This document shows, piece after piece, positions 32,506-46,576 of a stretch of DNA of 64,000 nt. The stretch spans positions 1,240,001 through 1,304,000 of the forward strand of contig NZ_JABEZU010000001.1 of assembly GCF_013149785.1 (NCBI RefSeq). The letters are read 5' to 3'. The notes below the pieces were generated by a model. The model saw nothing but the letters and a program-made list of their open reading frames with translations. It was not told the origin of the DNA and made no database searches. Numbering within the stretch: the first letter of the stretch is position 1; every line of letters starts with the position of its first letter. The DNA is from Isoptericola halotolerans (GTDB lineage Bacteria > Actinomycetota > Actinomycetes > Actinomycetales > Cellulomonadaceae). The translations under genes and the position numbers were made by a program.

Positions 32506-33699
32506 TCAGAGGGAGCCGACGCCCAGGTTCACAGGGCTGCCGGCGATGTTGCCGACGATTCCGCGGATGATGCCGCTGCCGTCGTTGCCGCGCAGGCTGT
32601 CGTACCAGGCGGCCGTCTTCGCGGCGTCGTACCCGTGCGTCTCCTCGCCACGGGCCCGCGCGCGCAGCACGAGGTCGCCGGCACGGGCGGTCCTGCTGCG
32701 CTCGTAGCGCCGCAGGGAGTCCTCGGCGCTCACGGTGTTGGTGGCGAGGCTGGTCGCGAGGGCGAAGGTGTCCTCCAGTGCGAGACACGCTCCCTGCCCG
32801 ATGTCGGGGGCGGTGGGGTGGGCAGCGTCTCCCAGGAGCGCGACGCGGCCGCGGACCCAGGTGGGGAACGGGTCGGCGTCCCAGATCTCCACCCGGTTGA
32901 GCGAGCGCCCCGGGTCGATGGCCGCGAGCAGCGCCTTGACCCCGGGCGCCCAGTGCGCGAACGCCTCGTCCAGCGGGGCGGTGCCGTCGGCGCGGTCGTA
33001 GGGCAGGCCCGCGGGCTGCGGGACGTCGAACCAGAAGTAGAAGCGACCGTCGGTCACGGGCATCACTGCTGCGCGCTTGCCCTCGGCGACATAGGTCGTC
33101 CACTGATCGGCAGGTCCGACCGCCGGGTCCGCCGTGACGAGCCCGTTGAAGTTGGTGTAGCCCGAGTAGGTCCGTTCGACGCGCGGGCCGCCCTCGTGCG
33201 CCCCCGTGACGTGGTCGCGGGTGACGGAGCGGGCGCCGTCGGCCCCGACGAGCAGGTCGGCGCTGTCGGTGGAGCCGTCGGCGAACGTCGCGGTCACCCG
33301 CTCCCCGTCGTCGACGACGGAGACGAGCTCCCTGCCCAGGTGGATGTTCTCGGTGCCGACCGTCTCCATCAGCAGGCCCTGCAGGTCGGCCCGTGCCACG
33401 GGGTAGGGGCGTTGGCCGGTCTGGTCGGTGACCGGAGCCAGGCTGAAACGGCACAGCTCGTCGCCGGTGCGCCCGTCGAGGTACGCCATGTGGTGCATCG
33501 CGCCGCCGAGCGCGGCCACCTGGTCGCCCAGGCCCAGCCAGTTGAGCACCTTGACGCCGTTGGACCACAGCGACAGCGCAGCGCCGACGGGCTTGTTCTC
33601 CCTCATCCTGTCGTGGACGACGACGTCGTGACCGAGCCGCTGCAGGGCGATGGCTGCGCTCGCACCACCGATGCCGGCCCCGATGACGATGATCTTCAT
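32506..33699 (-). CDS. hpxO: FAD-dependent urate hydroxylase
   Basis: A 397-residue flavin monooxygenase. IIVIGAGIGGASAAIALQRLG (3-23) is the FAD Rossmann loop. PVARADLQGLLM and ADLLVGADGARSVTRD are the second binding blocks, and VALLGDAAHPTAPDIGQGACLALED (about 300-324) the GD motif. HpxO-type enzymes use NADH to convert urate to 5-hydroxyisourate. The next genes, uraH and uraD, process exactly that product, which strongly supports the assignment. No cofactor-free uricase gene is in the island. Confidence 0.9.
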   Translation of the reverse strand: MKIIVIGAGIGGASAAIALQRLGHDVVVHDRMRENKPVGAALSLWSNGVKVLNWLGLGDQVAALGGAMHHMAYLDGRTGDELCRFSLAPVTDQTGQRPYPVARADLQGLLMETVGTENIHLGRELVSVVDDGERVTATFADGSTDSADLLVGADGARSVTRDHVTGAHEGGPRVERTYSGYTNFNGLVTADPAVGPADQWTTYVAEGKRAAVMPVTDGRFYFWFDVPQPAGLPYDRADGTAPLDEAFAHWAPGVKALLAAIDPGRSLNRVEIWDADPFPTWVRGRVALLGDAAHPTAPDIGQGACLALEDTFALATSLATNTVSAEDSLRRYERSRTARAGDLVLRARARGEETHGYDAAKTAAWYDSLRGNDGSGIIRGIVGNIAGSPVNLGVGSL

Positions 33700-33704
33700 G
33701 CTGA

Positions 33705-34037
33705 TCAGCTCCCGCGGTAGGTCGAGTAGGCGAACGGGCTGAGCAGCAGCGGGACGTGGTAGTGCCGGTCGCCGGCGTCGGCCTCGACGACGAAGGACAC
33801 GGTCACCTCGGGGTAGAACGTCTCGACCTCTCGTGCGCCGAAGTACGTCCCCGTGGCGAAGGTCAGGTCGTACCGGCCGGCCGGCAGCAGCTCAGGGCCG
33901 AGGGCGGCTCGGCCGTCGGCGTCGGTGGTGCCGGCGTCGACGCGCCGGCCCTGCTGGTCCGTCAGCTCGACGTGGACCCCCGCCGCCGGGGCGCCGGTGG
34001 TGGCGTCCAGCACGTGGGTGGTCAGGTGGCTGCTCAC
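33705..34037 (-). CDS. uraH: 5-hydroxyisourate hydrolase
   Basis: A 110-residue transthyretin-like enzyme. It opens SSHLTTHVLDATTGAPAAGV, contains the conserved His near residue 7, an Arg in DQQGRRV and RHYHVPLLLSPF, and ends in the diagnostic YRGS tetrapeptide. It hydrolyses 5-hydroxyisourate to the decarboxylase substrate. GTG at 34037 overlaps the uraD stop by 4 bp; the longer frame upstream has no homology. hpxO follows after 5 bp. Confidence 0.95.
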   Translation of the reverse strand: MSSHLTTHVLDATTGAPAAGVHVELTDQQGRRVDAGTTDADGRAALGPELLPAGRYDLTFATGTYFGAREVETFYPEVTVSFVVEADAGDRHYHVPLLLSPFAYSTYRGS

Positions 34038-34564
34038 GAGGCGGTCCCTCCTGGGTCGGCGGTGAGGTCGTCGGTGATCGATTCCCGCAGGCGGAGCAGG
34101 GCGATCTCGGCGAGCTGGCCGCAGGCCTCCGCCACCTCGGTCGGTTCGTCGTGGCCGAGGCGGCGGTCGAGCTCGGTGAGCATCTCCTCGGGCGAGCGGC
34201 CGGCGGCGCGGACGAGGAAGACACGGCCGAAGCGCTGCTCGTAGGCGCGGTTCTGGGCCGCGATGCGCGCCGAGACGTCGGCGTCGGCGTCGGCCATGCT
34301 GGCCTGCTCCCGGCGGGAGGCCTGGGCCTGAGCGCCATCGCCGGAGGGCTTCGCCCCGATCCTCGGGTGGTCGGCGAGCGCCGCGTCCAGCTCGGCACGG
34401 CTCCACCGGGCCGCCGTCCGCTCGGCGTGAGCGCGCAGGGCGGCGGTCGAGCCGTAGGGGCGGGCGGCGACCACGGCGTCGACCCAGTCGGGCACCGATG
34501 CCCACACGGACACGACCGACCGTGCTGCCGCGGTGCCCAGGGTGTCGAACTCGTCGATGTGCAC
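34034..34564 (-). CDS. uraD: 2-oxo-4-hydroxy-4-carboxy-5-ureidoimidazoline decarboxylase
   Basis: A 176-residue enzyme that makes (S)-allantoin. Conserved elements include ALADHPRIGAKPSGDGAQAQASRREQASM, with the catalytic His at about 66, and AAQNRAYEQRFGRVFLVRAAGRSPEEML. The GTG at 34564, preceded by GAGAGGA, was preferred to an upstream ATG because the extra 27 residues are not family-like. It is stand-alone here, whereas in several Gram-positives it is fused to uricase. It starts the uraD-uraH-hpxO operon, divergent from the XRE regulator. Confidence 0.9.
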   Translation of the reverse strand: MHIDEFDTLGTAAARSVVSVWASVPDWVDAVVAARPYGSTAALRAHAERTAARWSRAELDAALADHPRIGAKPSGDGAQAQASRREQASMADADADVSARIAAQNRAYEQRFGRVFLVRAAGRSPEEMLTELDRRLGHDEPTEVAEACGQLAEIALLRLRESITDDLTADPGGTAS

Positions 34565-34674: not shown

Positions 34675-34689
34675 GTTAAGTGATCACTT
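34675..34689. promoter_or_regulatory. ureide regulon operator, copy A
   Basis: GTTAAGTGATCACTT. The inner TAAGTGATCACTTA (34677-34690) is a perfect 14-bp palindrome. It lies between divergent uraD and the XRE-cupin gene and abuts the likely -35 of the latter (-10 TACGAT at 34712-34717). It is shared with copies at 35402 and 43781. Confidence 0.65.
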
Positions 34690-34744
34690 ATGGGCGCCGC
34701 GATCGTGCGCATACGATGTCCGCACCCTCGCGACTGGAGACGCC

Positions 34745-35377
34745 GTGGACACTGACCCCCTGCCCGCGCAGATCGGCACCCGGCTGCGCGCGCTGCGCAC
34801 CGCGACCGGCCGCTCCCTGGCGTCGGTCGCCCAGGAGCTGGGCATCTCCTCGAGCGCGCTCTCCCAGATCGAGACCGGCGCGATGAAGCCGTCGGTCACG
34901 CGACTCGTCGAGCTGGTCACCGTCCTGGGGGTGCCGATGTCGGCGATCTTCGACGACGTCGGTGTGCGCGCACCGCGCCCCGAGGAGGGTGGGCCGCAGG
35001 TCACCGAGCCGTTGGCGGGCGTGCTCGTCGCGCTCGGCGAGGACGCCGCCCCGGCGCAGCTGGAGCAGGGCGTCACCTACCGCCGGTTGTCGCCGGCCCC
35101 GCTGCCCGGGGTCACCTGGTTCGAGTCGACGTACCCGCCCGGCTCCTCGTCGAGCGCCGACGGCTCGATGCTCGTGCACACCGGCTACGAGAGCGGCCAT
35201 GTCGTCTCCGGGGTGCTCACCTTCGAGTTCAGCGAGGGAGCCGTGCGCCTCGGCCCGGGTGGCTCCCTGTCCTTCGCCGCGGCCCGCCCGCACCGGGTCG
35301 TCAACGACTCCGAGGAGGTCGCCGTCGCCCTGTGGCTGACCGTCGAGAGCGTGGTGGGCGGGCTGTCCGGCATGTAA
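34745..35377 (+). CDS. XRE-cupin transcriptional regulator of purine/ureide genes
   Basis: A 210-residue regulator. The helix-turn-helix spans about 8-62 (IGTRLRALRTATGRSLASVAQELGISSSALSQIETGAMKPS). A C-terminal cupin runs from about 125 to 205 (GSMLVHTGYESGHVVSGVLTFEF, then AAARPHRVVN). The cupin probably binds an effector such as allantoin, urate or glyoxylate. GTG at 34745 was chosen after GGAGA. A perfect palindrome overlaps its promoter, and similar sites precede allB and the ABC importer, so it is the probable regulator of the island. Confidence 0.88.
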   Translation: MDTDPLPAQIGTRLRALRTATGRSLASVAQELGISSSALSQIETGAMKPSVTRLVELVTVLGVPMSAIFDDVGVRAPRPEEGGPQVTEPLAGVLVALGEDAAPAQLEQGVTYRRLSPAPLPGVTWFESTYPPGSSSSADGSMLVHTGYESGHVVSGVLTFEFSEGAVRLGPGGSLSFAAARPHRVVNDSEEVAVALWLTVESVVGGLSGM

Positions 35378-35401
35378 CCGGATCGAAACTCGCCGGGAGA
35401 A

Positions 35402-35416
35402 GTTAAGCAATAACTT
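35402..35416. promoter_or_regulatory. ureide regulon operator, copy B
   Basis: GTTAAGCAATAACTT, identical to copy A at 12 of 15 positions. Flanking bases give 7-bp arms GAAGTTA and TAACTTC. It overlaps the expected -35 region for a CAGGAT -10 box at 35422-35427, upstream of the leader ORF and allB. Confidence 0.65.
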
Positions 35417-35484
35417 CACGGCAGGATCGTCCCACCGGGCACAGGGCGTGTCCGGGACGCGCGACGCCCCGCCCTGGAGGAAAG

Positions 35485-35532
35485 ATGCCGGTGAGCCTGA
35501 CCCACGGCCCGACCGCGACGACGCTGCCGTGA
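35485..35532 (+). CDS. 15-codon leader ORF coupled to allB
   Basis: ATG preceded by a strong ribosome site GGAGGAAAG (35476-35484). It encodes MPVSLTHGPTATTLP, then TGA that overlaps the allB GTG as GTGA. allB itself lacks a ribosome site of its own, so its translation probably depends on ribosomes finishing this leader. No family is known. The alternative is that allB starts further upstream in frame at 35448, without a ribosome site. Confidence 0.5.
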   Translation: MPVSLTHGPTATTLP

Positions 35533-36920
35533 CCGGCCACCGCCAGGTCTTCCGCGCCCGGCGAGCCCTCGTCGGTGGTGCCCTCCGGTCGGCTGCCGTG
35601 GTGGTCGACGACGGCCGCGTCGCCGACGTCGCGCCGCTGCACGAGCGGGTGGCCGACGCGCAGGAGGTCGTCGTGCCCGACGACGCCGTCCTGCTGCCGG
35701 GCCTGGTCGACTCCCACGTGCACGTCAACGACCCGGGACGCTCCGAGTGGGAGGGCTTCGGCTCCGCGACGGCCGCAGCAGCGGCCGGCGGCGTCACCAC
35801 GATCGTCGACATGCCGCTCAACTCGCTGCCCCCCACGACCACGGCCGCGGCGCTCGCGGTGAAGCAGGCCGTCGCGGCACCCGCCGCGCACGTCGACGTC
35901 GCCTTCTGGGGAGGGGCGGTGCCGGAGAACCTCGGCCGGCTCGCCCCGCTGCACGAGGCCGGGGTGTACGGGTTCAAGTGCTTCCTGGCCCCGTCCGGGG
36001 TCGACGAGTTCGGCCACCTCGACATCTCCCAGCTCGACGAGGCGATGGCGGAGGTCGCACGGCTCGGGTCCCGGTTGATCGTGCACGCCGAGGACCCCGG
36101 GCTCCTCCACGGTGACGGGGCGCTCGGCCGCGGCTACGACGCCTTCCTGCGCTCACGGCCCCCGGCGAGCGAGGCGTCGGCCGTGCGGTCCGTCATCGAC
36201 GCCGCCCGCCGCACGGGCGCCCGCGCGCACGTCCTGCACCTCAGCGACGCCGGCTCCCTGCCTGCGATCCGCCGGGCCAGGGCCGAGGGGGTCGACCTCA
36301 CCGTCGAGACCTGCCCGCACTACCTCACGCTCACGGCCGAGGAGATCCCCGACGGCGCCGCCGAGTTCAAGTGCTGCCCACCGATCCGAGGCTCCGCGAA
36401 CCGCGACCTGCTGTGGGAAGGACTCCTCGACGGGACGATCGACGCCGTCGTCAGCGACCACTCACCCTCCACCGTCGAACGCAAGCGGTCCGGTGACGGG
36501 GACTTCGGCCTCGCCTGGGGCGGCATCTCCGGCCTCCAGGTCGGTCTGTCAGCGGTGTGGACCGAGGCCCGTCGCCGGGGTGTCGGCCTCGAGGTGGTCG
36601 TGCCGTGGTTCACCACGGGACCCGCCGCGGTCGCGGGACTGACGGACGTCGGCGTGATCGCGCCCGGAGCCACCGCGCACCTGACGGTCTTCGGCGTCGA
36701 CGACGCCTTCGTCGTGGACGCTCACGCCCTGCTGCACCGCAACCCGATCACCGCCTACGACCGGCGCAGCCTGCGCGGGCGGGTGCGCCGCACCTGGCTG
36801 CGCGGCCGGCAGGTGTACGCCGTGGACGACGCCGGCACGTCTCCCGGACGCGGCCTCGTCCCGGCAGGCCGGCTGCTCTCGGCCCCCGCCGCCATCCCGA
36901 CCGGAGGTACCCCCGCATGA
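35529..36920 (+). CDS. allB: allantoinase
   Basis: A 463-residue dihydroorotase-like amidohydrolase opening the allantoin ring to allantoate. GLVDSHVHVNDPGRSEWEGF (about 57-76) gives the HxH pair. GFKCFLAPSGVDEFGHL carries the carboxylated Lys. HAEDPGLL, HVLHLSDAGSL and SDHSPSTVERK supply the remaining metal ligands. GTG at 35529 yields a normal family N-terminus and overlaps the leader ORF stop. It is coupled by ATGA to pucG. Confidence 0.95.
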   Translation: MTGHRQVFRARRALVGGALRSAAVVVDDGRVADVAPLHERVADAQEVVVPDDAVLLPGLVDSHVHVNDPGRSEWEGFGSATAAAAAGGVTTIVDMPLNSLPPTTTAAALAVKQAVAAPAAHVDVAFWGGAVPENLGRLAPLHEAGVYGFKCFLAPSGVDEFGHLDISQLDEAMAEVARLGSRLIVHAEDPGLLHGDGALGRGYDAFLRSRPPASEASAVRSVIDAARRTGARAHVLHLSDAGSLPAIRRARAEGVDLTVETCPHYLTLTAEEIPDGAAEFKCCPPIRGSANRDLLWEGLLDGTIDAVVSDHSPSTVERKRSGDGDFGLAWGGISGLQVGLSAVWTEARRRGVGLEVVVPWFTTGPAAVAGLTDVGVIAPGATAHLTVFGVDDAFVVDAHALLHRNPITAYDRRSLRGRVRRTWLRGRQVYAVDDAGTSPGRGLVPAGRLLSAPAAIPTGGTPA

Positions 36921-38164
36921 ACGGTCCCAGCCTGCCCGGCCCCCACCTGCCCGGCCCGATCGACCCGCCCGCCCGACTGCTCATGGGCCCCGGCCCCGTC
37001 TCGGCCTACCCGAGCGTGCTCCGCGCGATGTCCGCCCCGCTCGTCGGCCAGTACGACCCGTTCATGACGGCATCGATGACGCAGACGCAGCAGCTCTACC
37101 GCCAGGTGTGGGGCACCACGAACGACGCGACCGTGCTCGTGGACGGCACCTCGCGCGCGGGCATCGAGGCGGCGATCGTCTCGCTGGTGCGGCCCGGTGA
37201 CCGGGTGCTCGTGCCGGTGTTCGGCCGGTTCGGGCTGCTGCTCGCCGAGATCGCCACCCGGGCGATGGCCGAGGTGCACACGATCGAGGTGCCGTGGGGC
37301 CAGGTGTTCCCCGTCTCGACGATCGAGGAGGCCGTGCGGCGCGTGCGTCCCACGCTGCTGGCGCTCGTCCAGGGCGACACCTCGACCACGATGAACCAGC
37401 CGCTCGACGAGGTCGGCGCTCTGTGCGCCCGGTACGGCGTGCTGTTCTACTCCGACGCCACCGCGTCCCTCGGCGGGAACCTGTTCGAGGCCGACGCCTG
37501 GGGGCTGGATGCCGCCACCGCGGGCCTGCAGAAGTGCCTGGGTGGACCGTCGGGCTCGGCCCCGATCACCCTGTCGCCGCGGGCCGTGGACGTCCTGCGG
37601 TCCCGGCAGCGGATCGAGGCCGGCATCCGCGAGCCCGACGACCCCGACGCGAGCGACTTCGTGCGGTCGAACTACTTCGACCTCGGCATGATCCTGGACT
37701 ACTGGGGTCCTCGCCGCCTCAACCACCACACCGAGGCCACGTCGATGCTGTACGCGGCGCGCGAGTGTGCTCGCGTGCTCCTCGCGGAGGGCCGCGACGC
37801 CGTCGTGGAGCGGCATCGTGTCGCCGGCGCCGCGATGCTCGCGGGCGTGCGGGGACTCGGGCTGCAGGTCTTCGGCGACGTCGCGCACAAGATGCACAAC
37901 GTCGTCGCGGTCGAGATCCCCGACGGCGTGCCCGGGGAGGAGGTGCGCGCCGCGATGCTGGCCGACCTCGGCATCGAGATCGGCACCTCGTTCGGCCCGC
38001 TGCACGGCCGCGTGTGGCGCATCGGCACCATGGGCTACAACGCCCAGCAGGACGCCGTCCTGACCACGCTGGCCGCCCTCGAGGTGGTGCTGCGCCGCTT
38101 CGGGTGCTCCGTGCCGCCAGGGGGCGGGGTCGACGCGGCCGCCGACGTCTACCGGGGCGCCTGA
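36917..38164 (+). CDS. pucG: (S)-ureidoglycine-glyoxylate aminotransferase
   Basis: A 415-residue class V aminotransferase. LLMGPGPVSAYPSVLRAMSAPLVGQYDP begins the fold. YSDATASLGGNLFEADAWGLDAATAGLQKCLGGPSGSAPITLSP contains the PLP lysine (K206). Compared with ordinary alanine-glyoxylate aminotransferases, the allantoin context and QYDPFM stretch fit PucG, which transfers the ureidoglycine amino group to glyoxylate, yielding glycine and oxalurate. It is coupled to allB (ATGA) and allC (TGATG). Confidence 0.9.
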   Translation: MNGPSLPGPHLPGPIDPPARLLMGPGPVSAYPSVLRAMSAPLVGQYDPFMTASMTQTQQLYRQVWGTTNDATVLVDGTSRAGIEAAIVSLVRPGDRVLVPVFGRFGLLLAEIATRAMAEVHTIEVPWGQVFPVSTIEEAVRRVRPTLLALVQGDTSTTMNQPLDEVGALCARYGVLFYSDATASLGGNLFEADAWGLDAATAGLQKCLGGPSGSAPITLSPRAVDVLRSRQRIEAGIREPDDPDASDFVRSNYFDLGMILDYWGPRRLNHHTEATSMLYAARECARVLLAEGRDAVVERHRVAGAAMLAGVRGLGLQVFGDVAHKMHNVVAVEIPDGVPGEEVRAAMLADLGIEIGTSFGPLHGRVWRIGTMGYNAQQDAVLTTLAALEVVLRRFGCSVPPGGGVDAAADVYRGA

Positions 38165-39480
38165 TGGCCACGCTGCTGGGGGCAGGCCCGGGCATCGTCG
38201 CCGCGGGCGCCCGGCGGACCATGACGCGCTGCGACGGGTTGGCGAGCGTCAGCTCGTCGTCCCACGGCATCGAGAGGGTCTACCTCTCCGCCGAGCACGC
38301 GCGGGTGAACCGCACGGTCGCGGGGTGGATGCGCGAGATCGGCATGACGACGCGCGTCGACGCGGCCGGAAACCTGGTCGGGCGGCTCGAACGGGCGACC
38401 CCGTCCGGTGCGCCCGACCTCGACGCGCCGGCCCTCGTCGTCGGCTCCCACCTGGACACCGTGCCCGACGCCGGGCGCTACGACGGGGTCGTCGGCGTCC
38501 TCATGGGGCTGGAGGCCGTGCGCATGCTGCGCGAACCCGGCCCCGACGGGACCGGTTGGCGTTCCCCGCTGCCCTTCGCGCTCGAGGTGATCGCCTTCGC
38601 GGACGAGGAGGGCACCCGCTTCGGGAGGGCGCTGCTGGGCTCCTCCGCCGTCGCCGGGGCGTGGGACCCCGGCTGGTGGTCCCTCGCGGACGACGGCGGC
38701 ACGACGCTGCACGAGGCGTTCGTCGCCTTCGGGCTCGACCCCGCGCGTGTCGGTGAGGCGGCTCGTCGGCCCGAGGAGCTCGTCGGCTACCTCGAGGCCC
38801 ACATCGAGCAGGGGCCCGAGCTCGACGAGCGGGGCGAGTCCCTGGCCGTCGTGTCGTCCATCGCGTCTGCCCGGCGGTTCCAGATCGTCGTCGAGGGGGA
38901 GGCTCGCCACGCCGGCGGCACCCCGTACGACCGCCGTCGTGACGCCCTGCTGGGAGCGAGCGAGGCCGCGCTGGCCGTCGAACGAGTCTGCCGGGCCGAA
39001 CACCACGTCATCGGGACCGTGGGCCGGCTCGAGACCTTCCCCGGAGCCGTGAACGTCGTACCGGGCGAGGCGCGTCTCAGCCTCGACCTGCGCGGCGAGC
39101 TGGACGACGCGCGCGACCGGGTGTGGCGGTCGATCGAGCGCGAGGTCGACACGATCATGGGACGGCGCGGACTGCGCTGGCGCTCGGCGGAGGTCCACCG
39201 CGCGCCGGCCGTCTTCTGCGCGCCGCTGCTGCAGGACGTCGTGCGCGAGGGCATCGTCTCCACGCTGGACCGCGGCGTCGACGACCCGGCCACGATCTTC
39301 AGCCGAGCGGGCCACGACGCCATGGCGATCGGTGCGGTGACCGACGTCGGCATGCTGTTCCTGCGCAACCCCGACGGCATCAGCCATCACCCCGACGAGG
39401 AGGTCTCCGCGGGCGACGTGGCCCGCGGGACACGGGCTCTCGCCGAGGCGGTGCTCCAGCTGGCGGCCGACCGGGGCTGA
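38164..39480 (+). CDS. allC: allantoate amidohydrolase
   Basis: A 438-residue M20-family di-zinc amidase converting allantoate to ureidoglycine, ammonia and carbon dioxide. VVGSHLDTVPDAGRYDGVVGVLMGLEAV (about 94-121), FADEEGTRFG, YLEAHIEQGPELDERG, RHAGGTPYDRRRDAL and SRAGHDAMAIG are in the expected order, with the metal ligands H, D, E and H. It is the third gene of the allB operon. ATG at 38164 shares one base with the pucG stop. Confidence 0.94.
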   Translation: MATLLGAGPGIVAAGARRTMTRCDGLASVSSSSHGIERVYLSAEHARVNRTVAGWMREIGMTTRVDAAGNLVGRLERATPSGAPDLDAPALVVGSHLDTVPDAGRYDGVVGVLMGLEAVRMLREPGPDGTGWRSPLPFALEVIAFADEEGTRFGRALLGSSAVAGAWDPGWWSLADDGGTTLHEAFVAFGLDPARVGEAARRPEELVGYLEAHIEQGPELDERGESLAVVSSIASARRFQIVVEGEARHAGGTPYDRRRDALLGASEAALAVERVCRAEHHVIGTVGRLETFPGAVNVVPGEARLSLDLRGELDDARDRVWRSIEREVDTIMGRRGLRWRSAEVHRAPAVFCAPLLQDVVREGIVSTLDRGVDDPATIFSRAGHDAMAIGAVTDVGMLFLRNPDGISHHPDEEVSAGDVARGTRALAEAVLQLAADRG

Positions 39481-39523
39481 GGCACAGGGCACCGAGCCCC
39501 GGCTGCGCCGGTGACGGCTTCGC

Positions 39524-39529
39524 TACGCT
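39524..39529 (+). promoter_or_regulatory. -10 box of a leaderless promoter (GNAT gene)
   Basis: TACGCT, 6 nt before the ATG at 39536. Confidence 0.5.
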
Positions 39530-39535
39530 GCACGG

Positions 39536-40114
39536 ATGGGAGATCTGGGACCGGTGGCCTGGCCGCCCCCGCCGATCCGGACGGAGCGCCTCGTGCTCCG
39601 GCAGCCCGAGCCCCGCGACCGGCCGGCGATCGTCGAGCTGCACGCCTCGCCGCAGGTCGGCCGGTATATCGGCGGTGCCCGGCCGCGCGACGAGCTCGAA
39701 CGGTCGGTCTCCGAGGCGCCGAGCGGTCGGCCGGGCCAGTTCGTCGTGGACCTCGCCGGCGCGATGATCGGGCTGGTGCAGCTCGTCCGTCGGGACGCGG
39801 CGCACGAGGAGGGCCCCACGGCCGGCAGGGTCGATCTCGGGTATCTGTTCCTCCCGCACGTGTGGGGGCACGGGTACGCCACCGAGGCCTGCACCGCCGC
39901 CCTGGACTGGCTCGACCGGGTGCTGCCCGACGAGCGGGTGGTGCTGTCCACCCAGGTCGCCAACCAGCGCTCGATGCGTCTCGCCGAGAGGCTCGGGTTC
40001 ACCGAGATCGAGCGGCTCGAGGCCCACGGCGCCGAGCAGTGGTTCGGTGAGCGCCCTCCCGGCGGCGGTCCCGGTGCCGAGGCGCGTGCACCAGGGCGGC
40101 TCGACGTCAGGTGA
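39536..40114 (+). CDS. GNAT N-acetyltransferase (RimJ/RimL type)
   Basis: A 192-residue acetyltransferase_3 protein. RTERLVLRQPEPRDRPAIVELH (about 15-36) is the classical RimJ/L opening. VDLGYLFLPHVWGHGYATEACTAALDWL (about 101-128) is the acetyl-CoA binding motif A, and VANQRSMRLAERLGFTEIERLE motif B. The acceptor is unknown. It has its own leaderless promoter and is not obviously tied to purine catabolism although it interrupts the island. It ends 4 bp from the convergent permease stop. Confidence 0.88.
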   Translation: MGDLGPVAWPPPPIRTERLVLRQPEPRDRPAIVELHASPQVGRYIGGARPRDELERSVSEAPSGRPGQFVVDLAGAMIGLVQLVRRDAAHEEGPTAGRVDLGYLFLPHVWGHGYATEACTAALDWLDRVLPDERVVLSTQVANQRSMRLAERLGFTEIERLEAHGAEQWFGERPPGGGPGAEARAPGRLDVR

Positions 40115-40118
40115 GAGA

Positions 40119-40922
40119 TCAGCCCTGTGCGGTCGTCATCGCCATGCGCGTCAGCACGAGGTTCTCGATCACCTGGACGAAGTTGTAGAGCAGCAGCGTC
40201 ACGACGGTGATGAGGGCGACCGACGCCCACAGGTCGTCGAAGCGGGCGGACGCGGTGAACTTCACGATGGACCCGCCGATACCCGTCCCCGTGGACAGCC
40301 ACTCCGCGAGGAGCGCCCCGGTCACGGCCCCCGGGACGGAGACGCGCGCCGCTGCGAACAGGGAGGGCAGGGCTCCCGGGACGTTGACCTTTCGCATCGC
40401 GGTCAGGCGGTTGCCGCCGTAGACGTGCACGAGGTCGAGGCTCTGCGCGCTGGCGCGGCTCAGGCCGAACAGGATGGAGGCCAGGGCGGGGAACAGGACC
40501 ACGAGCGACCCGATGACCGCCACCGACGCCTGGGTGCCACGGCCGGTCACGAGGATGATCACCGGGGCGATCGAGACCAGGGGGATCGAGCGCAGGAGGA
40601 GCGCCAGAGGCATGACCCCGGCCTCGACGGTGCGAGACAGGGAGAAGGCGACGGCGAGGCCACCGGCGACGCCCATGCCGACGACGAAGCCGAGCGCCGC
40701 GTCCAGCAGGGTGCGGGCCAGCAGCGGGGCCAGCACGGCGCGGTTCTCCGCGGCGTCCTCGCCGGCGACGAGGAAGTCCCACACCTGTGCCGGCCCCTTG
40801 GCCACGTACGGCGACATGCCGGTGAGGTTCACGACGGCCCACCACAGCGCGAGCACGATCGCCAACGTCAGCAGGCCGTTGACGACGGCACGCCCCACGG
40901 GGCCCCGGGTGACGGTGTTCAC
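40119..40922 (-). CDS. ABC permease 2 of nitrate/taurine-type importer
   Basis: A 267-residue SsuC/TauC-like permease with about six helices. ARTLLDAALGFVVGMGVAGGLAVAFS and the EAA-like loop LDLVHVYGGNRLTAMRKVNVPGALPSLFAAARVSVPGA are visible. GTG at 40922 overlaps the first permease stop by 4 bp; the open frame upstream lacks homology. It is last in the SBP-ATPase-permease-permease operon. The tandem permeases imply a heterodimeric channel. Confidence 0.88.
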   Translation of the reverse strand: MNTVTRGPVGRAVVNGLLTLAIVLALWWAVVNLTGMSPYVAKGPAQVWDFLVAGEDAAENRAVLAPLLARTLLDAALGFVVGMGVAGGLAVAFSLSRTVEAGVMPLALLLRSIPLVSIAPVIILVTGRGTQASVAVIGSLVVLFPALASILFGLSRASAQSLDLVHVYGGNRLTAMRKVNVPGALPSLFAAARVSVPGAVTGALLAEWLSTGTGIGGSIVKFTASARFDDLWASVALITVVTLLLYNFVQVIENLVLTRMAMTTAQG

Positions 40923-41725
40923 GGTGTGCTCCGTCCTGCCACCCACGGGGTGGCGAAGCGTGCCAGCAGCCCGACGATGCCGTAGCCGACGAGGGCGACG
41001 GCGGCCGTGAGCAGGAACACCGCCCACACCCGCGGTGAGTCGAGGTCGCCCTGCAACCGGATCAGCGTGATGCCGACCCCCCGGTCGATCCCGCCCATGT
41101 ACTCGCCGAGCACCGCCCCGAGGAACGCCGACGGCACGGCGATCTGGAGGGCGTTGAGGATGGCGGGGGTGGCGGCGACGAGCCGTACCTTGCGCAGCTG
41201 GGTGAAGCGGGTGCCGCCGTACACGTGGACGACGTCGAGGCTCGCCCGGTCGGCGGACTTGAAGCCGAGCAGCGCGCCGACCACCGTGGTGAAGAACACG
41301 GCCAGCGCGGCCAGGAAGATCGCGGTGGCGCTCGGCTCCCCAGGACGGGGGGCCCCGCCGAGGACGACGATCGCGATGCCGCCCACGGCCACCACCGGCA
41401 GGCAGTAGCTGACCACGGCGATCTGGGTGATCACCGTCTCGATGCGCGGCGCCAGCAGCACGGTGGCGGCGAGCAGCAGGGCGATGGCGTTGCCCCAGGC
41501 GAAGCCGACGAGCGCCTCGGTGATCGTCACGGAGAACACACCGCGGTACGCGGCCAGTCCGTCGTCGGCGATCGTGGCGAGCACGACCCAGGGCGAGGGG
41601 ACCGGGGTGAAGGTGGTCCCGGGCGGCGGCCGGAAGATCGTGGCCGAGAAGAGCCACCATGCCCCGGTCAGCGCGACGGCGCCGAGCAGGCCGGCGAGCC
41701 ATCCGGGCATGCGGGTGCGCGCCAT
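40919..41725 (-). CDS. ABC permease 1 of nitrate/taurine-type importer
   Basis: A 268-residue permease resembling its neighbour. TITEALVGFAWGNAIALLLAATVLLAPRIE and LDVVHVYGGTRFTQLRKVRLVAATPAILNALQIAVPSAF, the coupling loop, are evident. It ends LLARFATPWVAGRSTP. ATG at 41725 shares a base with the ATPase stop (TGATG). With the second permease it would form the membrane pore for an organic nitrogen or heterocyclic substrate. Confidence 0.88.
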   Translation of the reverse strand: MARTRMPGWLAGLLGAVALTGAWWLFSATIFRPPPGTTFTPVPSPWVVLATIADDGLAAYRGVFSVTITEALVGFAWGNAIALLLAATVLLAPRIETVITQIAVVSYCLPVVAVGGIAIVVLGGAPRPGEPSATAIFLAALAVFFTTVVGALLGFKSADRASLDVVHVYGGTRFTQLRKVRLVAATPAILNALQIAVPSAFLGAVLGEYMGGIDRGVGITLIRLQGDLDSPRVWAVFLLTAAVALVGYGIVGLLARFATPWVAGRSTP

Positions 41726-42573
41726 CAGGACTCCGTCGCTGCGGCGTCGTGCGTGCCGAACAGCAGCTCGGAGGCCCGGTCGACGAGCGCGTGGAACTCC
41801 GGGGTCCGCATCATCTCGGGTGTCCGCGGGCGGGGCAGGTCGACCTCGATGATCTCCTTGATCCGCCCCGGGCGGGCCGACATGACGGCGACCCGGTCCG
41901 ACAGGAAGATCGCCTCGGAGATGCCGTGCGTGACCAGCAGGGTGGTGGCGGGCTTCTCGGTCCAGATGCGCAACAGCTCGAGGTTGAGGCTCTGGCGGGT
42001 CATGTCGTCCAGCGCCCCGAAGGGTTCGTCGAGGAGCAGCACCGACGGCTTGAGCGCCAACGCCCGGGCGATCGAGACGCGCTGGCGCATCCCGCCGGAG
42101 AGCTGCGCGGGCTTGGCCTTCTCGAACCCGGCGAGCCCGACCAGCTCGACGAGCTCGTCCACGTAGGCCTTGTCGACCGTGCGGCCGGCGACCTCGTAGA
42201 CGAGCCGGATGTTCGCGAGCACGCTGCGCCAGGGCAGCAGCGCGTGGTCCTGGAACGCGATGCCGAGCTCGCTGTCGCGGCGCAGCTGTGCCGGCGTCTT
42301 GCCGTCCACGGACACCGCGCCCGCGGTCGGCTGCTCGAGGTCGGCGAGGACGCGCAGGATCGTCGACTTGCCGCACCCGGACGGGCCGAGGAGGGCGAGG
42401 AAGGACCCCTTGTCGGTGTGCAGGTGAGCGTCCTGCAGGGCGGTCACCGTCGTGCGTCGTCCCGTGCGGAACGTCTTGGTCAGGCCGTCGATGTTGATCC
42501 CCGTGCCCCCCGGAGAGAGCGCGCTCTGCGCGAGCTCCGGGGGGCGGGCACCCGACGTGGTGTCGTGGCTCAT
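41725..42573 (-). CDS. ABC ATPase of nitrate/taurine-type importer
   Basis: A 282-residue SsuB/TauB-like ATPase. Walker [15 protein letters not shown] is at about 82-95. The Q-loop is [25 protein letters not shown], and the signature [19 protein letters not shown] precedes Walker [17 protein letters not shown]. The H-loop is [15 protein letters not shown]. It lies 6 bp downstream of the binding-protein gene. It powers uptake through the two downstream permeases. Confidence 0.94.
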
Positions 42574-42579
42574 GGTTCC

Positions 42580-43689
42580 CTACGGCAGGTAGTCGATCAG
42601 CTCGGGCTGCTCGGCATAGATCTCGTCGATGATCGCGGTGTCGAACAGCTCGTCGACCCCGACGTCCCAGCCGGCGGCGGCCAGCGAGTCGACAGTCTCC
42701 TGCTGGAGCTGCTCGGAGATGGTGAACAGGCCGTTCTCCTCGGTCTCCTCGGTGGAGATGAGCTCCTTCGTGGCCTCGAGGGCCATCGCCGTCTTCTCCG
42801 GGTCGAGGGCGCCGAACACGGCCTCGAGGCCGTCCTCCGACTCGGTGGCCGCGGTGTTGTAGTACTTGTCGACCAGCGCGACGGTGTCGTCCGTCGACTC
42901 GTTGAACACGTCCGTCCACCCCTTGATCTCGGCGGTGAGGAACGCCTTGAGCAGGTCGCGGTTCTCGGCGAGGTACTGGTCGGTGACGCTGAACGTCTCG
43001 GCGACGTAGGGCACGCCGTTCTCGGCGTAGGCGAGGTTGGTGATGTCGTAGCCGGCGAGCTCCACGGTCAGCGCCTCGTTGGTGAGGTACGCCATGAACC
43101 CGTCGACCTCCTCGTTCATCAGGGGCGTCGGGTCGAAGTCGACCGGGACCACGGTGACCTCGTCCTCGTCGATGCCGTTGGCCTGGAGCAGAGCGGCGAA
43201 CACCGACGCGTTGGAGTCCTGCACGCCGATCGTCCTGCCCACCAGGTCCTCGGGGGAGGAGATGTCGGCGCCGTCGGCCAGCGAGAGGATCGTGAAGGGG
43301 TTCTTCTGGAACGTCGCACCGATGATCTTCAGCGGCGCGTCCTGCTCGGCGATCGCCGCACCGATCGAGGCGGCGTCGCTCAGAGCCACCTCGACGCTGC
43401 CGGAGAGAAGCTTGGCGACGCCGGTGTCGGGGCCGGAGATGCCGATCACCTCGTCGAACCCGGCGTCGTCGTAGTAGCCGTTCTCGTCGGCGTAGAACTC
43501 GCCGGCGAACTCCTCGTTCTTGATCCAGGAGTACTGGACGCTGATCTCGCCGAAGGACGCGGCGTCGGTCTCGCCGGACGTGCCTGCTGGTTCCTCCCCG
43601 GCACACGCACCGAGGGCGAGGGCGCTCGCGGCGACCGCGGCGACGGCGCCCGCACGGGCTCGTCGTGAAGGGATGCTCTGGACTGCCAT
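42580..43689 (-). CDS. NMT1/ThiY-type substrate-binding lipoprotein
   Basis: A 369-residue lipoprotein; the signal peptide ends ALALGACAG (Cys at about 29). The mature domain starts ISVQYSWIKNEEFAGEFYADENGYYDDAGFDEV, the SBP_bac NMT1 fold used for pyrimidine, nitrate, sulfonate or riboflavin precursors. DISSPEDLVGRTIGVQDSNASV is a typical hinge segment. It sits between purine genes and has a ureide operator copy upstream, so a purine, urate or allantoin ligand is suggested but not shown. Confidence 0.88.
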   Translation of the reverse strand: MAVQSIPSRRARAGAVAAVAASALALGACAGEEPAGTSGETDAASFGEISVQYSWIKNEEFAGEFYADENGYYDDAGFDEVIGISGPDTGVAKLLSGSVEVALSDAASIGAAIAEQDAPLKIIGATFQKNPFTILSLADGADISSPEDLVGRTIGVQDSNASVFAALLQANGIDEDEVTVVPVDFDPTPLMNEEVDGFMAYLTNEALTVELAGYDITNLAYAENGVPYVAETFSVTDQYLAENRDLLKAFLTAEIKGWTDVFNESTDDTVALVDKYYNTAATESEDGLEAVFGALDPEKTAMALEATKELISTEETEENGLFTISEQLQQETVDSLAAAGWDVGVDELFDTAIIDEIYAEQPELIDYLP

Positions 43690-43780
43690 GGGTGGGACTC
43701 CGCTCGACCTCTGCCGGTAGGGACGAACGGCAACGTAGCCACGCGAGGTTTCGCCGTGAGGGTGGCGGCGTTTCGGAGGC

Positions 43781-43795
43781 GTTAAGCCATCACTT
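43781..43795. promoter_or_regulatory. ureide regulon operator, copy C
   Basis: GTTAAGCCATCACTT, 13 of 15 identical to copy A. It overlaps the xdh stop codon and lies about 90 bp before the binding-protein ATG. A TACGTT box at 43732-43737 (minus strand) is a likely -10, so here the site lies upstream of the -35. Confidence 0.6.
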
Positions 43796-46576
43796 CACCC
43801 TGGCAGATGGAGGTGCCGGTCGCTCCTGGGCGAGCCGCCACACGCGCTCGCGCGTGAAGGGCTGGCGGAACGGGCGCCGGCCGAGGGCGCGGGCGATGGC
43901 GTTGCCGACGGCGGGTGCCACCGGGTTGTACGGCGACTCGCTCATCGACTTCGCCCCGAACGGACCGATCGTGTCGTAGGTGTCGGCGAAGTACACCTCC
44001 GTGTCCGGGACGTCGGCCGACTGCGGGACACGGTAGGTGCGGAAGACCGGGTTGCTCACGGCCCCGTCCTCGTCCAGCAGCACCTCCTCGTACAGGGCGC
44101 TGCCCAGGCCCTGCGCGGCACCTCCCTCGACCTGGCCGCGGCACTGGGCGGGGTTCATGACGAACCCGGCGTCGGCCGCCTGCACCGACTGCAGCACGCG
44201 GACCGACCCGGTCCCGGGGTCGACGGCGACGCGCACGGCGTGGACGTTGAACGCCAGGCTGCGCTCCTTGCCGTCGTCGCTGCCGTGGGCGGTCAGCCCG
44301 TCGGTCTCCCCGGCCGCCGCCACGATCTCGGCGAAGCCGACCGTCCGGGTGCCGACCCGGACCCCGTCTGCGGTGAGCTCGGCCGGCGGCCGGGCCGGGC
44401 CCTCGAGCGGCGCGTCCGCCGATCCCGCCACCTGCTCCGCCAGGTCGACCACGAGGTCGCGCAGCGCCGTCGCCGCGCGGGCCAGCGCCTTGCCCGCGAC
44501 GACGGTCCCCGCCGAGGCGAACGCCCCTGTGTCGTGGTCGACGAGGTCGGTGTCGCTCGCGCTCAGGACGATCCGGTCGGCCGGTGCCGCCAGGAGCGAG
44601 GCGACGATCTGGCGGTGCACGGTGCTGGTGCCGTTGCCGAACTCGGCCGTCCCGACCGCGACGGCGTACGTGCCGTCGGGCCGCAGGGTCACCGAGGTGT
44701 GCGCGTGGTGCCCGCCCGGCGCGGCCCCCGCGATGAACGCGACAGCCATCCCCTCGCCGGTGAGCCACCCGGGTGGCGCCACGGCGCCGTTGCCACGGCG
44801 CAGCGCCCCCTGGGCGAGGTCCAGGCACTGGTCCAGGCCGTAGCTTCCCCATCGCAGGTCGGGCTCCGGCTCCTCGTGGACCGTGAGCAGCGGGTCACCG
44901 TCGCGGACCGCGTTGCGCCGGCGCAGGTTGAACGGGTCGATGCCGAGCTCCTCGGCCAGCATGTCCATCGCCGACTCGACGCCGAGGATCACCTGGCCGA
45001 GCCCGTACCCGCGGAACGCGCCCGAGGGCACCGTGTTCGTGTATACTGACTCGGCGTCGACACGCTTCACGTCGCAGCGGTAGACGTTGACCGACTCCGC
45101 CACCGAGTGGAACAGCACCCCGATGCCGTGGTTGCCGTACGCACCGGTGTTGCTGAGCACGTCGAGCTTCATCGCCGTGAGCCTGCCGTCCGCCGTCGCC
45201 CCGAGCGAGACCGTCACCCGGAACGGGTGGCGAAGCGCCGCACGCCGGAACTCGTCGGTGCGGGAGAACTCGTAGGCGACGGGCCGTCCGGTGGTCAGCA
45301 CGGCCAGGGCGACGAGGTCCTCGGCGAACATCTCCTGCTTGCCGCCGAACCCGCCGCCGACCCGGGCGGCGTGCACCCGGACCCGGTCTCGCGGCAGGTC
45401 GAAGACGTGGGCGAGCTCGTTGCGGGTGAGGAACGGCACCTGGGTGCTGGAGCGGATCACCAGCCGCCCGCCCGCGTCGATCCGTCCGATCGCCCCGTGC
45501 GTCTCGAGCTGCGCGTGGGCCACGCGACCGGTCTGCCAGGTGCCGCTGACGGTGACCGCGCTCGCCGCGAGGGCGGCATCGACGTCGCCGCCGATGCCGG
45601 CGTGCAGGCTCGCCAGGACGTTCGGGCGGTCCGGGTCGGTCCGCCCGGCGAGCGGGAGGTCGGGGTGCAGGACGGGCGCGTCGGGACGCCGGGCCGCCTC
45701 GGCGTCGAGCACCGCGGGCAGCGGTGCGTAGGTGAAGTCCACGAGCGCGAGGGCGGCGTCGGCGACCTCGGCGGACTCGGCGACGACGGCGGCGACGCGC
45801 TGACCGACGAACCGGACGGTGTCGTCCAGGACCCGGGTGTCGTCGGGGTCGTCGGTGCGGTGCTCGTGGCGGGCCGTGGAGAACCGGGTGCGCGGGGCGT
45901 CCTCGTGCGTGAGCACGGCCACCACGCCCGGCAGCGCCCGGGCGGCTGCCGCGTCGATCGCGACGATGCGGGCGTGCGCGTGCGGTGAGCCGAGCACACG
46001 GAGCACCAGGGCGCCGGCGGCGTCCGGCGTGTCGAAGGTGAACGGCTCGCGGCCCTGGACCACACGGCGGGCGGGCTCGGGGGAGACGGAGCGTCCGACG
46101 CCGGTGGCCGGACCCTCGTCGTCGACCTCGCCGAACGCAGGCTCGCCGAGCACGGCCCGGCGGATCGCCGAGCGGATCGGCCGGTAGCCGGTGCAACGGC
46201 ACAGGCTGCCCTTGAGCCGCCGGTCCAGGTCCGGCAGGTCGTCCGCGGTGAGGCAGGAGGCCGTGACGCTCATGCCCGGCGTGCAGAACCCGCACTGGAA
46301 GCCGAACTCCTCGATGAGCGCCTCCTGGACGGGATGCAGCGCCTCGCCGGGGGCGAGTCCGGCGGCGGTGGTGACCTGCGCCCCCTCGGCACGTGGCGCC
46401 GGGACCACGCACGAGTGCACCGGCGTGCCGTCCAGCAGCACCGCGCACGCCCCGCAGTCCCCGGCGTCGCAACCCTTCTTGACCTCGGTGTGCCCGTGCT
46501 CGCGCAGCAGGGTCCGCAGACACTGACCGGGGCGGGGGTCGGTGTCGTGCGAGGTGCCGTTGACGTCGATCTTCAT
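43790..46576 (-). CDS. xdhA: xanthine dehydrogenase, fused 2Fe-2S and molybdopterin subunits
   Basis: A 928-residue fusion. The N-terminus holds two [2Fe-2S] sites: C36, C41, C44, C56 and C95, C98, C126, C128 (CGFCTPG, CRCTGY). After a linker (about 150-165) the molybdopterin-binding domains follow: FDTPDAAGALVLRVLGSPHAHARI, LETHGAIGRID, GGGFGGKQEMFAEDL, and QVEGGAAQGLGSALYEE with the catalytic Glu. It hydroxylates hypoxanthine and xanthine to urate, feeding HpxO. The FAD subunit is separate and overlaps at 46573. In most XDHs these three modules are either all separate or all fused. Confidence 0.92.
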   Translation of the reverse strand: MKIDVNGTSHDTDPRPGQCLRTLLREHGHTEVKKGCDAGDCGACAVLLDGTPVHSCVVPAPRAEGAQVTTAAGLAPGEALHPVQEALIEEFGFQCGFCTPGMSVTASCLTADDLPDLDRRLKGSLCRCTGYRPIRSAIRRAVLGEPAFGEVDDEGPATGVGRSVSPEPARRVVQGREPFTFDTPDAAGALVLRVLGSPHAHARIVAIDAAAARALPGVVAVLTHEDAPRTRFSTARHEHRTDDPDDTRVLDDTVRFVGQRVAAVVAESAEVADAALALVDFTYAPLPAVLDAEAARRPDAPVLHPDLPLAGRTDPDRPNVLASLHAGIGGDVDAALAASAVTVSGTWQTGRVAHAQLETHGAIGRIDAGGRLVIRSSTQVPFLTRNELAHVFDLPRDRVRVHAARVGGGFGGKQEMFAEDLVALAVLTTGRPVAYEFSRTDEFRRAALRHPFRVTVSLGATADGRLTAMKLDVLSNTGAYGNHGIGVLFHSVAESVNVYRCDVKRVDAESVYTNTVPSGAFRGYGLGQVILGVESAMDMLAEELGIDPFNLRRRNAVRDGDPLLTVHEEPEPDLRWGSYGLDQCLDLAQGALRRGNGAVAPPGWLTGEGMAVAFIAGAAPGGHHAHTSVTLRPDGTYAVAVGTAEFGNGTSTVHRQIVASLLAAPADRIVLSASDTDLVDHDTGAFASAGTVVAGKALARAATALRDLVVDLAEQVAGSADAPLEGPARPPAELTADGVRVGTRTVGFAEIVAAAGETDGLTAHGSDDGKERSLAFNVHAVRVAVDPGTGSVRVLQSVQAADAGFVMNPAQCRGQVEGGAAQGLGSALYEEVLLDEDGAVSNPVFRTYRVPQSADVPDTEVYFADTYDTIGPFGAKSMSESPYNPVAPAVGNAIARALGRRPFRQPFTRERVWRLAQERPAPPSARVK

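Follow-up and report, generated by a model that had tools for sequence, protein, structure and literature searches.

The stretch of DNA analysed here, from the soil actinobacterium Isoptericola halotolerans (contig NZ_JABEZU010000001.1, positions 1,240,001 to 1,304,000; 64,000 bp, hereafter the window) carries genes for uric acid and allantoin breakdown and uptake, a gene for an XRE-cupin regulator and three copies (A, B and C) of a palindromic repeat. The repeats are predicted to be operators of the XRE-cupin protein, which would repress these genes in composite control with GlnR, the global nitrogen-starvation activator, a reading to which we assign a probability of roughly three in four from the sequence. 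The sites, their conservation and fixed geometry, their linkage to the regulator and the presence of a GlnR-like protein in the genome were computed directly. At site B, GlnR would bind the box GTAAC-N6-GAAAC beside the -35 position, and an XRE-cupin dimer would occupy the 18-bp dyad 12 bp downstream of this box, covering the -10. A pathway compound held by the cupin domain, perhaps allantoin or allantoate, would release the repressor, and the genes would be on only if nitrogen is short and a ureide is present. The binding, regulatory sign, ligand and promoter positions of this scheme are those that we infer.

The repeat and its conservation

A first-pass annotation of the window had described the repeat as GTTAAGNNATNACTT, which is matched exactly at 34675, 35402 and 43781. 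Checking by eye agreed with its statements that 12 of 15 positions are identical among the copies and that copy A holds a perfect 14-bp palindrome (34677–34690). The 3.97-Mb genome, searched with reversed patterns as controls, contains three exact matches, all inside the window, and the refuting case of a motif common at random positions did not arise. With up to two mismatches the genome gave nine matches, six of them being the three sites counted once per strand, and the reversed control gave three; one near match, with two mismatches, is at C1:1221443. At the same tolerance the window gave six matches (again the three sites, counted once per strand), and 100 shuffles averaged 0.11 with a largest value of 3.

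The element was thus present in three copies as described, but its length is 18 bp: in copies B and C the second half of the dyad extends into the CAC that follows. A symmetric matrix built from 37 distinct sites close to regulator homologues has the consensus GTKAAGYNATNRCTTMAC. Copy A had been put forward as the best of the three, but it is the weakest by the matrix (Table 1; the next place in the window scores 7.9 bits) and the least conserved. In this genome copies B and C are the sole exact matches to the symmetric pattern GTKMAGNNATNNCTKMAC, and copy A departs from it by two mismatches. At two mismatches this pattern is not specific (41 places per strand against 31 for the control), and the case for copy A is therefore made by its exact match to GTTAAGNNATNACTT, its matrix score and its position. 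Allowing three mismatches to the 18-bp pattern was uninformative, with 168 and 147 matches by strand against 144 and 148 in the controls. A -10-like TACGAT lies shortly downstream of copy A (34712–34717) and is present in all six aligned genomes. The GlnR box of a glutamine synthetase gene is preceded, at a distance of 26 bp, by an operator-like dyad with two mismatches (G000:C5:333785-333802), which is likely chance at that mismatch level.

The 150-genome family sample includes 15 congeners, of which five carry the regulator at 77–82% identity, one (G137) encodes a distant form at 44%, and nine have none. Copy B has a counterpart in each of the five regulator-bearing congeners, exact in three and with one mismatch in G110 and G116, and the counterpart of copy C is exact in all five. 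The exact 18-bp site was not found in any of the nine sampled congeners without the regulator.

A proposed composite promoter with GlnR boxes

The first-pass annotation missed the GlnR boxes of sites B and C, which, judging by the sequence, probably represent half of the control. The box at B is of the strict form (GTNAC-N6-GAAAC) in all six aligned Isoptericola genomes, and a relaxed form is found at C in the same six. The strict box has seven exact matches in the genome against one for the reversed control, and one of the seven precedes a glutamine synthetase gene. GlnR itself is represented in the genome by L135, which matches chain O of 8hih, presumably a GlnR structure (E 3.8e-86), and 4o1h, which is named GlnR (6.3e-26). 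The genome also encodes a fusion of uroporphyrinogen-III synthase with a DNA-binding domain of the response-regulator type (L147), which we take to resemble NnaR, the nitrate regulator of mycobacteria.

A wider contig search for regulator homologues provided 77 loci, which were split into a near group (L051–L071; 21 loci, regulator 58–83% identical) and a far group (L072–L127; 56 loci, 38–52%). Box and operator are separated by 12 bp in 46 of the 77 loci, which together hold 49 such elements with 28 distinct operators. Spacings of 4–11 and 13–22 bp occur in 0–1 loci each, and a spacing of 23 bp in five. Read towards the target gene, TANNNT occupies operator positions 10–15 in 49/49 composite elements, against 2/49 on the mirror strand. 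This one-sidedness despite a symmetric matrix fits a -10 inside the operator, with GAAAC near the -35 position. Since dyad B would contain the -10, repressor and RNA polymerase would exclude each other there. GAAAC as a -35 element was also considered, and was dropped on the exact GTNAC-N6-GAAAC register.

Site C is arranged differently: KTNAC-N6-GNAAC is followed 17 bp on by a second GAAAC (43748–43752), ungapped in all six genomes. The proposed -10, TACGTT, stands 32 bp past the first GAAAC in all six, the same register as that of TAGCGT at the glutamine synthetase gene glnA. The five bases that operator C shares with the GlnR box suggest that the repressor would displace GlnR. Repression is the likely sign of control because the bound protein would sit over the -10 at site B and overlap the GlnR box at site C, and because characterised XRE-cupin proteins repress.

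The same geometry could instead reflect an XRE-cupin activator, or a co-binder with GlnR, for which the 12-bp spacing would be a protein–protein contact and not a shared promoter position. The spacing is rigid in distant genera and has a second class 11 bp further, and operator C lies upstream of the proposed promoter, a usual place for an activator. This explanation is nevertheless improbable, as the TANNNT inside the operator of every composite element locates the dyad at the core promoter and the characterised XRE-cupin proteins are repressors.

A GlnR-box match arising as a by-product of promoter composition, with the XRE-cupin operator alone functional, is very unlikely. The box consensus is short, and box and operator share letters at C, but enrichment is confined to a box spacer of 6 and an operator spacing of 12 (or 23), and the strict box is rare in the genome, with one of its seven matches ahead of a glutamine synthetase gene. 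In a count where paired operators can share one box, the spacer of 6 is present at 36 (strict) or 69 (relaxed) of 95 operator sites, and other spacers from 2 to 11 at no more than 3 (strict) or 4 (relaxed).

Linkage of the operator to the regulator

The regulator consists of an N-terminal XRE-type helix-turn-helix (HTH) domain followed by a cupin domain, the arrangement that defines XRE-cupin proteins, and its Pfam matches to HTH_31 (49.8 bits), HTH_3 (43.9) and Cupin_2 (41.1) are all above the curated cut-offs. Pfam identified only HTH and cupin families in this protein and no IclR-type domain. Its best NCBIfam match is PuuR, at 48.2 bits against a cut-off of 211, a score so far below the cut-off that the protein is not PuuR. 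The recognition-helix region is kept between near and far homologues. The predicted model of the regulator is of moderate quality (mean predicted local distance difference test score, pLDDT, 73.8; predicted template modelling score, pTM, 0.60), and its best fold match is 1y9q, an HTH_3-family regulator. No ligand was drawn from the fold, given the moderate model and matches to generic cupins.

Homologues of the regulator at E up to 1e-20 are encoded by 25 of the 150 family genomes. Long stretches were examined in 20 of these (19 plus the window), leaving out G001, G022, G026, G089 and G147, which have weaker homologues (E 9.7e-26 to 1.6e-23) and in whose loci, of up to 3.6 kb, GTTAAGNNATNACTT was not found at two mismatches. 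The exact 18-bp site is present in 13 of the 20 genomes, at 18 places that are all within 14 kb of the regulator, and the remaining seven have a one-mismatch copy upstream of the regulator. Among the other 130 sampled genomes, seven have one exact site each; that of G001 and its weak regulator homologue are on different contigs.

In 62 of the 77 loci (55/56 far, 7/21 near), the 320 bp preceding the regulator contain a dyad with at most two mismatches; the mean for 200 permuted palindromes is 0.64 loci, the largest value (28) coming from permutations resembling the motif. The dyad of near-group loci is often found between the regulator and allB instead, as in the window. When one mismatch is allowed, 69 sites are close to the regulator (1.26 per kb) and five are in the remaining parts of the same loci (0.0056 per kb). 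A palindromic operator beside the regulator's own gene, scoring above 15 bits and located between -420 and +1000 bp of its start, is found in 69 of the 77 loci. A general helical-phasing rule for double operators was rejected, as the stronger pairs show spacings of 20, 22, 25, 31, 63 and 64. As to gene content, the near group has allB in 19 and uraH or hpxO in 15, and the far group has both an NCS1 permease and a racemase in 54, with allB in 17. The racemase of L042 matches 3qvj (9.2e-70), an entry named 'putative hydantoin racemase' that we take to be an allantoin racemase, and the allantoin racemase 5lfd (4.8e-42). The NCS1 transporter of the relatives matches Mhp1 (4.5e-20). By these matches, allantoin is favoured over hydantoin as the substrate of the transporter and racemase.

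The composite pattern was used to scan 396 genomes of the order with one mismatch permitted, giving 13 matches in 12 genomes and none with the reversed control. All 13 are at ureide or NCS1-transporter genes, and all 12 genomes encode the regulator. Eight matches are at loci already examined; the five others are in the uraD-allB gap facing uraD (L152), upstream of NCS1 permease genes (L158, L161, L163) and upstream of allB (L162). In G366 the composite site and the regulator are on different contigs, which indicates that the site marks remote targets as well as those beside the regulator gene. One of the further matches (L158; L166:2347-2392) is the second composite element of Isoptericola AK164; it precedes an NCS1 permease gene, some 18 kb away from the regulator, and is predicted from the DNA alone to mark a distant regulon member.

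The first-pass annotation had named the XRE-cupin protein as the candidate binder of the purine/ureide operators, and co-occurrence over many genera supports this. Because the dyad adjoins its gene in many actinobacteria, the protein very likely binds it. Some other DNA-binding protein is a very improbable binder, even with no dyad near the regulator in 8/77 loci, as the conserved genes recognised in many far-group loci are limited to the regulator, NCS1 permease and racemase, and the composite pattern was matched solely in regulator-bearing genomes (12/12), once unlinked.

Several observations weigh against XRE-cupin/GlnR control as proposed. Some of the loci from which the operator pattern was built were also among those later counted, so the figures for sites near the regulator are not wholly independent, and the independence of the composite scan is likewise partial, as G227, G399 and G416 may belong to the 77 loci. 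Copy A is not conserved: no counterpart with up to four mismatches was found upstream in four of the five regulator-bearing congeners, and G072 has a three-mismatch remnant. The spacing at B in G110 and G116 is 8 and not 12, with TGACTT as the -10-like word. Operator C does not cover the proposed -10 of its promoter, and the register of box and TANNNT alone matches twice in the genome, at B and at one other place. No GlnR box was found within 75 bp of the operator in 17 of the 69 operator loci, mostly from Nonomuraea, Streptomyces and relatives. Of the eight loci where the search near the regulator gave no operator, three (L065, L066, L070) have composite elements elsewhere, and for a fourth, L062 (Miniimonas arenae), the element is in its genome; its regulator coordinates agree to one codon with those of G366.

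Some Microbacterium loci (L056, L065, L066) have a second regulator homologue, 38–44% identical to that of the window, beside the near-type one, and both may read the same operator. The regulator gene of L044 (G052) is split across two frames in that record. Actinobacteria-like ureide loci are present in L054 and L080, which are labelled as Planococcus and as an Acidobacteria metagenome-assembled genome respectively, and these record labels look doubtful.

Gene content of the window

The genes leftward of copy A are ordered hpxO-uraH-uraD, and those rightward are the regulator, allB, a class-V aminotransferase gene and an allantoate amidohydrolase-like gene (Table 1). An ATP-binding cassette (ABC) importer follows, and then a xanthine dehydrogenase-like enzyme, an 8-oxoguanine deaminase and XdhC. 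The aminotransferase has no NCBIfam equivalog above its cut-off, and the M20 enzyme scores 471.7 bits against NF006775, slightly below the cut-off of 479.

Table 1. Coordinates of predicted genes and control elements within the window
Feature	Position	Strand	Remarks
hpxO, FAD-dependent urate hydroxylase	32506..33699	-	NF033623 549.7 bits, cut-off 500
uraH, hydroxyisourate hydrolase	33705..34037	-	TIGR02962 116 bits, cut-off 87.45
uraD, OHCU decarboxylase	34034..34564	-	PF09349 140.7 bits; start set by eye
Operator copy A, between regulator and uraD	34675..34692	.	exact GTTAAGNNATNACTT; 18.2 bits
XRE-cupin regulator gene, 210 aa	34745..35377	+	HTH_31, HTH_3, Cupin_2; GTG start as called
GlnR box GTAAC-N6-GAAAC before B	35374..35389	+	overlaps regulator gene end by 4 bp
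Operator copy B, before allB	35402..35419	+	31.9 bits; 12 bp past GlnR box
TAACTT, proposed -10 of allB promoter, inside operator B	35411..35416	+	promoter function inferred
allB, allantoinase	35529..36920	+	TIGR03178 517.9 bits, cut-off 357.85
Class-V aminotransferase, PucG-like by position	36917..38164	+	PF00266
Allantoate amidohydrolase-like M20 enzyme	38164..39480	+	TIGR01879 316 bits, cut-off 204
Importer ATPase and two permeases	40119..42573	-	PF00005, PF00528 twice
NMT1/THI5-like substrate-binding protein, ABC importer	42580..43689	-	PF09084 133.2 bits; PDB 3ix1 E 9.7e-15
TACGTT, proposed -10 of importer promoter	43732..43737	-	32 bp past first GAAAC
GlnR-like box TTAAC-N6-GAAAC	43770..43785	-	overlaps operator C by five bases
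Operator copy C, before ABC importer operon	43781..43798	-	30.2 bits

In the five regulator-bearing congeners a stretch of 2.7–2.9 kb separates allB from the aminotransferase gene, and in three loci (L026, L027 and L028; relatives L051, L053 and L057) this stretch contains FmdA-like and HpxW/HpxZ-like genes. The two genes overlap directly in the window (36917–36920), so the intervening stretch is missing here. An HpxW-like frame, 52% identical, lies at C1:1112-2713. Upstream of allB, a 15-codon open reading frame (ORF) with a good ribosome site (35485–35532) terminates at a TGA that shares bases with the allB start codon, GTG. ORFs are present at the same place in G042 and G021 (15 codons) and in G110 (12 codons), and that of the window is a possible coupled leader peptide of allB.

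Significance and comparison with known systems

In the proposed scheme, pathway control by an XRE-cupin repressor is set at a fixed spacing from control by GlnR. More broadly, it is on balance probable that ureide promoters of several actinobacterial families share a hard-wired arrangement of GlnR box, 12 bp and operator with its -10, which computes AND logic and by itself finds ureide genes and unlinked members, and that the regulators form a new group of allantoin-type sensors. This would propose a function and an operator for an unnamed XRE-cupin group of Isoptericola, Microbacterium, Cellulomonas, Nonomuraea and Streptomyces, and the rigid promoter design would join global nitrogen control to pathway-specific control. 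The resulting DNA signature identifies purine/allantoin genes with no need of protein homology. In the open-access literature, subscription papers not being covered, neither this regulator nor the composite promoter was found to be described.

PuuR, an XRE-cupin protein of putrescine metabolism, has the same domain order as the regulator of the window, which falls below the PuuR equivalog cut-off. AllR belongs to the IclR family and HpxR to the LysR family, and the contrast drawn with these two and with PucR in the first-pass annotation holds by protein family, as the regulator combines HTH_3/HTH_31 with Cupin_2. Rintoul (2002), by its title, reportedly concerns AllR/AllS control of the E. coli allantoin genes. 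As in that system, a repressor and an activator would act jointly on allantoin genes, but here they would be an XRE-cupin protein and GlnR, with another operator. In the accessible text of one report, AllR is described as IclR-type with the motif KTTGGAAWAWTWTTCCAAC (PMC8222616).

Seven XRE-cupin proteins of Pseudomonas aeruginosa have been studied and have known regulons; each represses genes adjacent to its own through binding at core promoters, according to the available portion of that study (PMC7901475). The regulator of the window resembles them, as far as that portion goes, in its HTH_3-type and cupin domains, local targets next to its own gene, palindromic operators and control of a metabolic pathway. 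Unlike theirs, as set out in the same portion, the operators here differ in sequence and contain a -10-like word whose spacing from an activator box is fixed; a ureide/GlnR composite promoter is not described for the P. aeruginosa proteins in that text (PMC7901475).

For GlnR, the accessible parts of the sources give GTNAC-N6-GAAAC as the box of Streptomyces coelicolor (PMC10704036) and report that in M. smegmatis GlnR binds at a gene of the allantoin permease family and at one for a putative allantoicase (PMC3662644). The boxes of the window resemble those of the actinomycete GlnR regulon, gTnAc-n6-GaAAc, as presented in the same parts (PMC10704036, PMC3662644, PMC3087709). Unlike the GlnR regulons described in these parts (PMC10704036, PMC3662644, PMC3087709), that of the window would be coupled to an XRE-cupin operator at fixed spacing.

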